From a virus: a stretch of 42,386 nt of DNA. This document shows positions 27,235 through 38,620 of the stretch, piece after piece; the first letter of the stretch is position 1; the number at the start of each line of letters is the position of its first letter. The notes below the pieces were generated by a model that was not told the origin of the DNA, searched no databases, and was given only the letters and a program-made list of their open reading frames with translations. A program made the position numbers and the translations under genes. The stretch lies in the IMG/VR virus record IMGVR_UViG_3300011126_000059, positions 1-42,386 of that record; one strand, written 5' to 3'.

Positions 27235-27305
27235 ATCCGGGTTCATGGATGCTCTACACGGTCGGAGTGCTGCTGGTCGTCCTCTTGGGAGTGACGCTAG
27301 CATGA
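27228..27305 (+). CDS. Membrane micropeptide (25 aa)
   Basis: The frame encodes a 25-residue peptide, almost all one hydrophobic segment (WMLYTVGVLLVVLLGVTLA). It overlaps the preceding leader ORF and the following gene (ATGA), the pattern of coupled translation. A hydrophobic single span between spanins and a membrane coiled-coil gene suggests a part of the lysis machinery, such as a pinholin or antiholin. That remains inference. Confidence 0.4.
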   Translation: MLNPGSWMLYTVGVLLVVLLGVTLA

Positions 27306-27562
27306 ACGATATCGGGACCATCCTCAAGGAATACTGGACTGTCGTTGCCGGGGCAATCGGCGCGCTTATCGGTCTTGTCGCATGGCTGATCAGGCTCGAA
27401 AGCCGATCCCTCTCCAATGAAAAAGAAATCAGACGTCTATGGACGCAGAGAAAGGAGGATCTCGCCAACGCTCAGCATAGCCGGGATGCTCAAACGCGGG
27501 TGCTCGATGAGATCCGCCAGGACATCAAGAAGCTGCTGGGCCGACAGTCGAAAGGAGACTGA
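27302..27562 (+). CDS. Membrane-anchored coiled-coil protein, holin-like or XhlA-like
   Basis: 86 aa. ATG 27302 overlaps the micropeptide stop. One N-terminal membrane segment (VVAGAIGALIGLVAWLIRL) is followed by a charged coiled coil (SNEKEIRRLWTQRKEDLANAQHSRDAQTRVLDEIRQDIKKLLG). XhlA-type lysis proteins have one span plus coiled coil, though in reverse order. It is the best holin candidate in the lysis block, but the class is uncertain. Confidence 0.6.
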   Translation: MNDIGTILKEYWTVVAGAIGALIGLVAWLIRLESRSLSNEKEIRRLWTQRKEDLANAQHSRDAQTRVLDEIRQDIKKLLGRQSKGD

Positions 27563-35686: not shown

Positions 35687-35814
35687 GGGTTCTTCCACGG
35701 CTCGTTGCGACCATCTTCGGCAACACGGTCTAGGAATGACTTAGAGCCAGACAAGCCCCATCCAGCCAGCCCGAATGCCAAAAGCAAGAACAGGGAAAAC
35801 GCGGAGAGAGCCAT
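35683..35814 (-). CDS. Membrane micropeptide (43 aa)
   Basis: ATG 35814 overlaps the stop of the previous gene (TGATG) and its own stop overlaps the HNH start (ATGA). A hydrophobic segment FSLFLLLAFGLAGWGL near the N-terminus is followed by a polar tail. Function unknown. Confidence 0.5.
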   Translation of the reverse strand: MALSAFSLFLLLAFGLAGWGLSGSKSFLDRVAEDGRNEPWKNP

Positions 35815-36008
35815 CACAGCCACCTCTCTGCATTGAGCAGGCCCGTCTTGAACTCGACGTATTGCTTGTCGACGGTTGACACTCGCCCGTGACGCTTCAC
35901 GGTGTGCTTGCGGACGGTGTACAGCGCGAAGTCTTCCGGGCACCTCTTGGCCAGCTTGCGGCGGGTCATCCAGTCCTGATAGGCCCATATGATGCGGCGG
36001 ACTCTCAT
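35814..36008 (-). CDS. Small basic protein (64 aa)
   Basis: ATG 36008 overlaps the previous gene (ATGA). Basic throughout: MRVRRIIWAYQDWMTRRKLAKRCPEDFALYTVRKHTVKRHGRV. It could bind nucleic acid. No family recognised. Coupled on both sides. Confidence 0.6.
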   Translation of the reverse strand: MRVRRIIWAYQDWMTRRKLAKRCPEDFALYTVRKHTVKRHGRVSTVDKQYVEFKTGLLNAERWL

Positions 36009-36223
36009 GGCTTGGCCTCCTCGTGCCCGGTCGTGACCGTGGCCGTCATCCCGCCGCTGGCTACAACGAAAACATCGCCATGGTGCGGGATGTGGAGACT
36101 GACAGTTGCGGTGGACATTTTGGGCATATCACCGGCCCGCATCCGCTCAACGTATTCGCATATCGCATCACATACTTCGCGGTTCGTTAATCTGACAATC
36201 ATGCGTTCTTCGATGTCTGCCAT
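36005..36223 (-). CDS. Hypothetical protein downstream of the hairpin array (72 aa)
   Basis: ATG 36223 with AAAGGATAGGA upstream, 21 bases after the last of three hairpins. The sequence MADIEERMIVRLTNREVCDAICEYVERMRAGDMPKMSTATVSLHIPHHGDVFVVA has a helix and a beta sheet; function unknown. The hairpin array directly upstream may affect its expression. Confidence 0.65.
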   Translation of the reverse strand: MADIEERMIVRLTNREVCDAICEYVERMRAGDMPKMSTATVSLHIPHHGDVFVVASGGMTATVTTGHEEAKP

Positions 36224-36244
36224 GTCCTATCCTTTCAAAGGTTA

Positions 36245-36360
36245 GCCGGAGAGGCGGGGAGGGAGGAGGACGCCTCTCCGGCGTTAGATGCGCTGCTTGG
36301 GAGGAGTGAGCGCATCATCTGGATTAGTGGCCGGGCGATGGAGGCGCTAACCGCCCGGCC
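36245..36360 (-). ncRNA. Three-hairpin array with anti-Shine-Dalgarno loops, cuckoo/CcsR-like
   Basis: Three perfect hairpins in a row, each with a loop of exactly 14 bases: stem 12 bp with arms 36245-36256 and 36271-36282, stem 8 bp with arms 36287-36294 and 36309-36316, stem 9 bp with arms 36329-36337 and 36352-36360. On the leftward transcript the loops read UCCUCCUCCCUCCC, CACUCCUCCCAAGC and GUUAGCGCCUCCAU, so CUCCUCCC or CCUCC is exposed. This is the mark of cuckoo/CcsR-type small RNAs of Alphaproteobacteria as I recall them. The third hairpin lies in the end of the upstream gene, so it may be a 3'-UTR RNA. On the plus strand the loops would show GGA motifs as in CsrA-binding RNAs. Confidence 0.5.
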
Positions 36361-36821
36361 TTCCGGTGTACCGCTTGGGGATTGGCGTCACCGGATTGGG
36401 GAATTGTCAAAATCACGCCCTGCTCTGAGAAGTGCTGAAACACCTCATTGAGGTATTCCGTCTTCTGCTTTGTGTTCATGTCCCGCGTGACCGGGAAATC
36501 GATAGGCTCAGCCATCAAGGCTATCTTGGAATCGTAGGGCAGTGGCCGAATGATGCGGTCGTACTTCTCGCAATAGTCGGCATCGTCACGCCTGCGGATC
36601 GGGACGCCAATGGTCAGCTTGCAATAGGCCCGCACATCCTCGGCTGTCCTGTCGCCAAGCTGCTCGGCGATCTCCTGCATCCATTTCCGTTGCAGCTTGT
36701 TCTGTATCCAGGTGCGGGACTTCCCGTGCACTGTTGAGGCCGTGAAGGGCAAAGACTGCCCCTCCACAAGCTTGATGAACATGCGGCGTTCGTGTTCAGA
36801 CGTGACGATGCGGGAGGTCAT
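36324..36821 (-). CDS. NinB-like recombination protein
   Basis: 165 aa. Resembles the phage NinB/Orf family of recombination mediators in the stretch RKWMQEIAEQLGDRTAEDVRAYCKLTIGVPI..., LMAEPIDFPVTRDMNTKQKTEYLNEVFQHFSEQGVIL. The match is partial: the N-terminus (MTSRIVTSEHERRMFIKLVEGQSLPFT) agrees, the C-terminus is Pro-rich. In lambda such proteins help load recombinases on single strands. It sits beside SSB in the leftward operon. Its last codons also form a perfect hairpin. Confidence 0.6.
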   Translation of the reverse strand: MTSRIVTSEHERRMFIKLVEGQSLPFTASTVHGKSRTWIQNKLQRKWMQEIAEQLGDRTAEDVRAYCKLTIGVPIRRRDDADYCEKYDRIIRPLPYDSKIALMAEPIDFPVTRDMNTKQKTEYLNEVFQHFSEQGVILTIPQSGDANPQAVHRKAGRLAPPSPGH

Positions 36822-36831
36822 TGTTCAGCCC

Positions 36832-37221
36832 CTAAAACGGCACGTCGTCGTTGAGATCATCGTTATATGATGCCCCGCCGCTCGACTGCTGGTTGGCTTG
36901 GCCGCTTTCCCGCTCTGGATACCCGCCTTCAGGCTTGCCGCCCTGCAACGTGATGTCGTTCGCGCGGCACTGCATGTAGCTCTTGCCCTCATGTTCACGC
37001 TTGGAGAACTCGCCCGTTACCGTGACGCTTGAACCCTTGCGCAGGTGAGGTGCGAGAGCCGTCCCGCGCTTGCCCCACATGGAGACGGACCACCAGTAGG
37101 TTTCCTTCTTGTCTCCGTAGCCGTGATCCACAGCCATGTTGAAGCTGGTCACGTCGTTGCCCTCGTGCTGCCGGGTGGTGGCGTCTCCGCCAAGCCGTCC
37201 CGCGAGTGTGATGTTCATCAT
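36832..37221 (-). CDS. ssb: Single-stranded DNA-binding protein
   Basis: 129 aa. OB-fold of the SSB type: MNITLAGRLGGDATTRQHEGNDVTSFNMAVDHGYGDKKETYWWSVSMWGKRGTALAPHLRKGSSVTVTGEF. A disordered Gly/Gln/Ser-rich linker leads to the acidic tip NDDVPF, which recruits partner proteins. ATG 37221 is preferred over the TTG at 37227. It binds unwound DNA in replication and recombination. Confidence 0.92.
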   Translation of the reverse strand: MMNITLAGRLGGDATTRQHEGNDVTSFNMAVDHGYGDKKETYWWSVSMWGKRGTALAPHLRKGSSVTVTGEFSKREHEGKSYMQCRANDITLQGGKPEGGYPERESGQANQQSSGGASYNDDLNDDVPF

Positions 37222-37223
37222 GT

Positions 37224-37964
37224 TCAAAGTTCCTTGTGTTCGGTGATTTCAAAGCCGGGAAGCGAACGCTTGCCAGACCGCACAGCCTTGTCGGCCTGCT
37301 CTTGAACGAAGGCCATCAGTTCGGGCCGATGGTCGGTCCATAGCCAACCGGCTGCGGCTTTCTCGTCGGTGATTGTTGCGCGCCATACAGACCGCAAACC
37401 GGATGCGCGGCCATCGCCCTTTGCGTGGGCTTTTGCCTTCTCTGCGCGGGCTGCCTCAGCTTCCGCCTGCTTGGCTTCCCGCACCAGCCGTTCGGCCTCT
37501 GCGGCCTGTTCGAGGTTGGATGCGTCACGCGACCGCATGGCTTCCATAGCAGCGGCTTGTTTGGCTTCGGCTTCCTCGCGGGCTGCTTCGGCGGCTTCGC
37601 GCTGCTGACGGTCCAGTTCGAGCAAGTACGGCTTCAGCGCGGCCTTGACGGCATCGATTGCCGCAACGGTCTTGCCTGTGACTTTAGTGGTCTTCCCGAT
37701 GAGCGGATTGTAGCGCTCCTGGATCTCGGCCTTCGCGTCATCGAGCGGCTTGACCTCATCCTTGCGCATTGCCTCGCAGTCTTTGGCGGCTTCGCGAATG
37801 CGGTTCTCAAGCGTGTTGAGGGCGTCGGCCTGCTCTTGCCTTGTGACGGGTTCGCCGTCGAGCCATTGCGCAGCCTCGTCGTAAAGGTCGTTGATGTATT
37901 CTGCCATCAACTCAAATGGTGATAGCGGCGGCTTGTTGTGGCCGATGGTCGCTGTCTGGGTCAT
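37224..37964 (-). CDS. Coiled-coil protein of the recombination operon
   Basis: 246 aa. Residues about 110-190 form a long, Ala/Glu/Arg-rich coiled coil (LDRQQREAAEAAREEAEAKQAAAMEAMRSR, RLVREAKQAEAEAARAEKAKAHA). The ends are globular (TRQEQADALNTLENRIREAAKDCEAMRKDEVKPLDDAKAEIQERYNPL). Similar proteins stand beside ERF or SSB genes in many alphaproteobacterial phages; function unknown. The gene overlaps its upstream and downstream neighbours by a few bases. Confidence 0.75.
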   Translation of the reverse strand: MTQTATIGHNKPPLSPFELMAEYINDLYDEAAQWLDGEPVTRQEQADALNTLENRIREAAKDCEAMRKDEVKPLDDAKAEIQERYNPLIGKTTKVTGKTVAAIDAVKAALKPYLLELDRQQREAAEAAREEAEAKQAAAMEAMRSRDASNLEQAAEAERLVREAKQAEAEAARAEKAKAHAKGDGRASGLRSVWRATITDEKAAAGWLWTDHRPELMAFVQEQADKAVRSGKRSLPGFEITEHKEL

Positions 37965-38620
37965 TCTGCTGCCTCCGAGAACGGGCTGTCGTTGTTCTTG
38001 AACCCATTGGCGAGCGCCGTTACCTCATCCTTCAGGTTCTTCTGCCAATCCTCTGGCAGCTTCATCTTGTGCTGCTTGAGTTCGGGGTCTTTCCACCACG
38101 ATTCCAAGTCCGCGAGCGTCTTGTTCTCACGCGCCTGCGCTTGCAGCCTGTCGTAGACTTTGCGGGTCTCATCATTCTTGGACGGGGCCTTCCTGTCCTG
38201 ATTTGTGGGCGCGGCTGCTGCTGCGGCGTTCCCGTCGTCGTCATCAGGAGCAAGTCCGGTCACGCTTTCCGCACCAATGCGCTTGGCGTAGGTGGTCGCG
38301 CTCTTGAAGCCCTGCATGTCGTTCTTGGCGACGATCAGCGGCACATCGCATTCAATGGCCGTCTCGCTTTCGCCATGCATCAGGACGGTGCGCATGGTGT
38401 GGCCCTCGTTGGTGATCTGGTGATAGATCGTGAGGCCGTTGGAATTGAGCGCGGGAAGGGCGGTCGCCATCAGGGCCGCGAGATCCGCATACTTGCTCTT
38501 GAAGTGCGGGTTCAGCGAGTCCTTGACCAGCTTTCCCATCTGGGCCTGCGCGGCTGCGAGTGCGGTCCACACGTTCTTGTGGATGATAACCGCGTCCTTG
38601 ATTTCTGCTTTGGCGTTCAT
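37961..38620 (-). CDS. erf: ERF-type single-strand annealing protein
   Basis: 219 aa. Family ERF: LAAAQAQMGKLVKDSLNPHFKSKYADLAALMATALPALNSNGLTIYHQ at the N-terminus is the signature; FKSATTYAKRIGAESVTGLAPDDDDGN continues it. ERF proteins anneal single strands and help circularise or recombine phage DNA, as in P22. The C-terminal half is polar and helical. It lies in a block with SSB and a NinB-like gene. Confidence 0.9.
   Translation of the reverse strand: MNAKAEIKDAVIIHKNVWTALAAAQAQMGKLVKDSLNPHFKSKYADLAALMATALPALNSNGLTIYHQITNEGHTMRTVLMHGESETAIECDVPLIVAKNDMQGFKSATTYAKRIGAESVTGLAPDDDDGNAAAAAAPTNQDRKAPSKNDETRKVYDRLQAQARENKTLADLESWWKDPELKQHKMKLPEDWQKNLKDEVTALANGFKNNDSPFSEAAE

Follow-up and report, generated by a model that had tools for sequence, protein, structure and literature searches.

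Three hairpins with anti-Shine-Dalgarno (anti-SD) loops stand at the end of a ninB-like gene in the DNA analysed here, a stretch of 42,386 nucleotides referred to below as the window. Their presence raises the question of whether a temperate phage carries its own version of the Shine-Dalgarno (SD)-masking regulatory RNAs of bacteria, or whether the hairpins act only on the mRNA that contains them. Terminase, portal, and methyltransferase genes elsewhere in the window confirm that it is a phage genome.

Three adjacent hairpins display anti-SD loops on the leftward RNA

The initial annotation described three consecutive perfect stems of 12, 8, and 9 bp, all with loops of exactly 14 bases, and their exact coordinates were confirmed:

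36245..36282, minus strand: HP3, arms 36245-36256/36271-36282, perfect 12 bp, 14 nt between the arms, loop UCCUCCUCCCUCCC
36287..36316, minus strand: HP2, arms 36287-36294/36309-36316, perfect 8 bp, 14 nt between the arms, loop CACUCCUCCCAAGC
36329..36360, minus strand: HP1, arms 36329-36337/36352-36360, perfect 9 bp, 14 nt between the arms, loop GUUAGCGCCUCCAU

All pairs in the three stems are Watson-Crick, and all three loops show CCUCC-type sequence on the leftward RNA, as annotated, but the complete 9-nt motif CCUCCUCCC is found in the HP3 loop alone. The HP2 loop has 8 of the 9 motif bases (CUCCUCCC), and the HP1 loop has CCUCC only, 5 nt of the motif. HP2 and HP3 are the two canonical hairpins, with HP1 an additional upstream one, and HP3 is both the strongest hairpin of the cluster and the last on the leftward RNA. 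There is no U-tract after HP3, where the sequence is UAACCUUUG. The equal spacing of 14 nt between the arms seems incidental, because extra pairs close the HP1 loop down to 10 nt in the MFE fold and loops in other copies of the element are roughly 8-18 nt long.

The three adjacent anti-SD-loop hairpins are real and far above chance. Perfect stems of at least 8 bp with CCTCC or GGAGG in a loop of 4-18 nt occur nowhere in the window except at HP1-HP3, with 0.17 such stems per window expected from first-order simulations and no adjacent pair of anti-SD-loop stems in 60 windows simulated in this way. The hairpin scores of HP2 and HP3 together were matched by 0 of 5000 flank shuffles. The leftward (minus-strand) RNA folds with an energy of -63.4 kcal/mol (z = -4.6), while the plus-strand RNA has z = -2.6.

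The element was probably inserted into a leftward early operon

The hairpins belong to a leftward early gene run with the order ERF, exonuclease, SSB, NinB-like gene, element, two orphan small genes, and HNH endonuclease; an integrase gene lies further left. The features surrounding the element are:

36832..38620, minus strand: recombination module (SSB, exonuclease, ERF), upstream in the same leftward gene run
36324..36821, minus strand: NinB/Orf-like recombination mediator gene, upstream of the element, with a tail that encodes HP1
36225..36235, minus strand: weak SD sequence AAAGGAUAGGA of the 72-aa gene
36005..36223, minus strand: 72-aa gene, an orphan, downstream of the element
35814..36008, minus strand: 64-aa gene, second downstream of the element

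The stop codon (TAA) of the ninB-like ORF is at 36324-36326, HP2 starts 7 nt past it, and the end of HP3 is 21 nt from the ATG of the 72-aa gene. The initial annotation's view of the element, read leftward and joined to the NinB-like gene at its 3' end, is supported, with the refinement that HP1 is inside the 3' end of the ORF, so that only HP2 and HP3 are intergenic. The part of the NinB-like protein that codes HP1 is a C-terminal tail beyond residue ~143, which is missing from aligned relatives.

NinB-like relatives were compared at 11 loci from Rhizobiales genomes and 80 from viral contigs, and the insert with its hairpin cluster was absent from 91 of 91. In ninB loci (n = 95) the next start codon usually overlaps the stop codon by 4 nt, compared with a gap of 100 nt in the window. 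Because these relatives lack both the insert and the NinB tail, and because of the gap in the window, the element would most simply have been gained by this phage. No relatives of the 72-aa gene were found in Pfam, PHROG, named phages, or viral contigs, and neither this gene nor the 64-aa gene has a relative among the loci compared. These two small genes (35814-36223) are co-directional with the element and were possibly gained together with it. Joint spread of the element and the 72-aa gene was considered and rejected, as none of these searches found a relative of that gene.

Similar elements recur in viral contigs

Viral contigs were scanned with a sequence-only pattern that required a pair of loop motifs a given distance apart and no stems, which produced hits in at least 120 contigs. 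Among the matches listed, both motifs fell in hairpin loops in 49 of 117 usable hits, where flank shuffles give an expectation of 0.62 and a maximum of 2. Among these listed matches, about one third of the hits with both motifs in hairpin loops are host NfeR1 loci, which have three hairpins followed by a U-rich tail and lie close to a helicase gene. Most of the remaining listed hits have two hairpins, with stems that differ between elements, and many lie close to phage genes:

L025, L078: near exonuclease VIII
L052: near RecE and RecT
L021: near a single-strand annealing protein (SSAP)
L010, L013, L024, L030, L031, L043, L061: near DNA methyltransferases
L033, L043: near S24 repressors
L040: near a CII-like gene
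L099: near a primosomal gene
L058: near a DNA repair gene

Placement directly after a gene is common among these elements. In 15 of 26 distinct elements the first hairpin lies no more than 15 nt from the end of an ORF of 40 or more codons on the same strand, compared with 14% of random positions (p = 4e-7), and the window element shares this proximity through HP2, its first canonical hairpin. In other copies the stop codon often lies within the base of the stem, and the next start codon often follows 5-33 nt past the element. With a simple ORF caller, the nearest flanking ORFs were co-directional in only 27 of 40 cases. A refined pattern gave no match when run on the window, and a search of plasmids for DNA relatives of the element returned a single meaningless hit.

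Two contigs deserve separate mention. One (L118:3533-3648) has a three-hairpin ar14 copy that scores 72.0 bits, above the Rfam gathering score, and adjoins a viral-contig gene that matches an endolysin PHROG; this copy may be either a true ar14 carried by a phage or host flank. The other (L097:754-1153) has two tandem anti-SD multi-hairpin elements within ~400 bases.

Stems covary and the loop motif is conserved in a syntenic set that includes named phages

The element was also located in three named phages, where it is unannotated:

NC_029046.1:13491-13561: Sinorhizobium phage phiLM21, found by DNA similarity to one pattern-scan locus
MN988468.1:45732-45801: Rhizobium phage RHph_TM3_3_3, found by similarity to the window
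L241:472-547: Rhizobium phage RHph_N28_2

The words sRNA, small RNA, and hairpin are absent from two publications on phiLM21 and phiLM21-like prophages. In all three phages the upstream gene is encoded on the strand that reads CCUCC. The element follows a GapR/DUF2312 gene in phiLM21 and RHph_TM3_3_3, as it also does in a group of contigs. As in the window, a weaker first hairpin and a stronger second one display CCUCC loops, and the element stands directly past a stop codon in an early region without a terminator. The named-phage copies are in a rightward early region after GapR/DUF2312, whereas the window copy, with its extra hairpin, is part of a recombination operon that runs leftward. A conserved stretch, CGGATCCGCTTnTTCGCCAGTCGCATGACG, is found directly after the element in both NC_029046.1:13542-13610 and MN988468.1:45782-45850. 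In the first hairpin of RHph_N28_2 the stem is kept and the loop is CTCACCCCCAC, with the anti-SD motif lost, suggesting that not every loop is needed; this hairpin is a natural loop variant that can be used in experiments.

Counting pairs on elements picked for their hairpins would be circular, and an alignment (A2) made with MAFFT from 21 unrelated two-hairpin elements was set aside because its stems were misaligned. We therefore relied on a syntenic set (A4) of ten sequences that includes phiLM21 and RHph_TM3_3_3, from which L024, L061, L085, and L025 were excluded before counting because MAFFT had put their stems out of register. A4 is only partly independent of the search, in that 8 of its 10 rows came from the loop-motif pattern scan, though that pattern asks for no stems. 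In this alignment 99.0% of cells are paired, compared with 26-46% in slid controls, with changes on both sides in 10 of 21 pairs and a covariation score of 0.406 against 0.151 after shuffling. Alignment with related phages, which the initial annotation had proposed as a check, thus had two outcomes: the insert is absent from the ninB relatives, and in the syntenic set the stems covary around a conserved loop motif. As the window copy has no orthologue among the ninB relatives, this covariation pertains to the class of elements in phage early operons rather than to this copy.

A covariance model (R1) built from A4 gave one hit on the window, to HP2 and HP3 at 36241..36320 on the minus strand (28.3 bits, E 1.7e-4). 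In 730 kb of other loci, all hits with E<0.5 were pattern-fetched loci or named carriers, and the best hit in a ninB relative had E 0.91. R1 also hits 3 of 15 named phages, a proportion that is no estimate of frequency because these phages were chosen partly for their similarity to carriers.

The window element resembles host cuckoo RNAs below the Rfam gathering scores

The 'cuckoo' RNA family was reportedly described by Reinkensmeier and Giegerich in 2015. Broadly defined, it comprises RNAs with two to four adjacent hairpins, an anti-SD motif in the loops, and variable stems. In bacteria, RNAs of this type regulate metabolism, stress, and symbiosis. The Rfam search that the initial annotation had suggested gave no match in the window at the curated gathering cut-offs. 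Below them, ar14 (RF02344) matches 36240..36367 on the minus strand with 23.4 bits against a gathering score of 58.8. This match spans the whole model (positions 1-123), aligns all three adjacent hairpins, and has an E-value of 0.019 when 401 nt are searched with the whole of Rfam and of 4.7e-4 when ar14 alone is run on the 42-kb record; at the same loose limit ar14 also has matches in 3 of 14 control genomes. CcsR1 (RF02791) matches HP2 and HP3 with 17.9 bits, short of its gathering score of 65.3, and carries little weight because a loose CcsR search matches 8 of 14 control genomes as well. In Rhizobiales genomes with related prophages, ar14 is found above the cut-off in 8 of 8. The annotated class of cuckoo, CcsR, and ar14-type RNAs is supported by the weak full-length ar14 match, the R1 match, and many similar phage loci. 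By this likeness we consider the assignment to cuckoo RNAs sound, with scores that leave the element outside formal membership in ar14 or CcsR.

The loops are suited to compete with 16S rRNA for strong SD sites

The probability of being unpaired is 0.79 for the HP1 loop, 0.92 for HP2, and 1.00 for HP3. With an ideal SD sequence, pairing energies are -23.1 kcal/mol for the HP3 loop and -17.9 kcal/mol for the HP2 loop, compared with -15.4 kcal/mol for the 3' end of 16S rRNA. Since the loops have the same sense as that 3' end, they would compete with 16S rRNA for SD sites and cannot pair with 16S rRNA itself, contrary to the earlier proposal that 16S rRNA is what they compete for. The proposal that they control the gene at 36005-36223 also finds no support: the SD sequence of this gene is weak, and the loops pair poorly with it (-6.4 to -7.0 kcal/mol).

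Strong SD sequences in phage genes showed no avoidance and no difference when compared with those of host genes. The proposal that weak SDs protect the phage's own mRNAs was accordingly rejected, and there is no sign of targeting that spares the phage and is directed at the host. The ribosome binding region of the ORF at 27302-27562 (window positions 27280-27302) includes CTTGGGAG, 8 nt complementary to the HP2 loop; a match of this length is about what chance gives over 67 ORFs, and we do not claim this ORF as a target.

A trans-acting RNA is weighed against cis and protein-binding roles

We consider it somewhat probable that the window element is a phage form of the cuckoo RNAs known from alphaproteobacteria (ar14/NfeR1, CcsR), embedded in an mRNA and lacking its own terminator, and that it masks SD sites. 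The element would be transcribed within the leftward early mRNA, between two genes, and host RNases could then trim a stable RNA from this mRNA, as CcsR RNAs are released from the ccaF1 3' UTR. The loops would pair with strong SDs (GGGAGGAGG-like) of host, and possibly also phage, mRNAs, and this pairing may block translation in trans, as NfeR1 does with ntrB. Both the release of an RNA from the early mRNA and the masking of SDs in trans are proposed by analogy with NfeR1 and CcsR.

The main rival, which we judge rather unlikely, is that the element works only in cis, on the stability of the mRNA or on gene ratio. The hairpins would be an intercistronic element that shields the upstream mRNA from 3'-5' exonucleases or sets the ratio of upstream to downstream gene expression, with no trans RNA, and the C-rich sequence would mainly keep the loops open or stop ribosome read-in. 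Elements that sit directly past stop codons, often 5-33 nt before the next start, with a last hairpin that has no terminator, are what such a role would produce, and the SD of the next gene, about half paired in the fold, fits it as well. Yet a cis stabiliser would not require the same 9-nt loop motif across dissimilar stems, the SDs downstream are unremarkable and have weak complementarity to the loops, and host relatives with such loops act in trans (PMC10746234). Another rival is a decoy whose C-rich loops attract an RNA-binding protein of the host, such as a small protein like CcaF1 or some other stress regulator, so that the phage titrates it. Repeated identical loops would suit this role, and CcaF1 takes part in CcsR maturation in Rhodobacter (PMC8625941); we regard this as improbable, because an exact complement of a strong SD is better explained by base pairing.

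Far less probable still is a functional plus-strand transcript, which the initial annotation raised as a source of GGA loops for CsrA/RsmE. The loops do read GGAGG on that strand, which also folds well, but the neighbouring genes run leftward, both ar14 and R1 match the minus strand, and in the three named phages the CCUCC strand is that of the upstream gene. That the hairpins are inverted repeats arisen by chance in GC-rich DNA, or a plain cluster of terminators, is hardly credible: the region is GC-rich and HP3 very stable, but the stem counts set against expectation already refute this explanation, the U-tract of a terminator is missing after HP3, and the element recurs with covariation at other loci.

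Phages thus appear, by analogy with the host RNAs, to carry their own version of an SD-masking bacterial regulatory RNA. No report of a phage-borne cuckoo member was found in the open-access literature searched, a scope outside which the key cuckoo publication lies, and as far as this literature shows, anti-SD hairpin elements that lack a terminator and recur in temperate phages appear to be undescribed. More tentatively, temperate phages of alphaproteobacteria may have widespread, undescribed intercistronic anti-SD RNAs that imitate NfeR1 and CcsR. Once cut from the early mRNA, such RNAs would remodel translation in the host upon infection or induction. If phages do carry cuckoo-type RNAs without terminators in their early operons, this would point to phage control over translation in the host through pairing with ribosome binding sites. 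The element is a recurrent RNA feature overlooked by present phage annotation, and the named temperate rhizobial phages allow a direct test of phage cuckoo-type RNAs.

Comparison with host anti-SD RNAs

Among the host RNAs closest to the window element is ar14, or NfeR1 of S. meliloti, which likewise has three adjacent anti-SD-loop hairpins on one strand in an alphaproteobacterial setting. Membership of ar14/NfeR1 would call for CCUCCUCCC in every loop; in the window only HP3 has it complete, and the first loop has CCUCC alone. Host ar14 copies have a U-rich tail, TTCTTGTTTT or similar, after the last hairpin, which the window element lacks, and the window element differs from ar14/NfeR1 in sitting inside a phage operon. 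NfeR1 silences ntrB in trans through such anti-SD loops (PMC10746234). The CcsR1-4 RNAs of Rhodobacter sphaeroides resemble the window element in having two hairpins whose anti-SD loops are C-rich and in lying past the end of a protein gene, and are processed out of the 3' UTR of the ccaF1 mRNA, in which RNase E has a role (PMC8625941). They belong to a host stress regulon, in contrast to the phage early operon of the window element. The wider cuckoo family, which includes SmelA075/SmelA099, combines adjacent hairpins and CCUCCUCCC loops with highly variable stems (PMC3927594). Measured against its motif, HP3 fits with 9 of 9 bases, HP2 with 8 of 9, and HP1 in part (5 nt).
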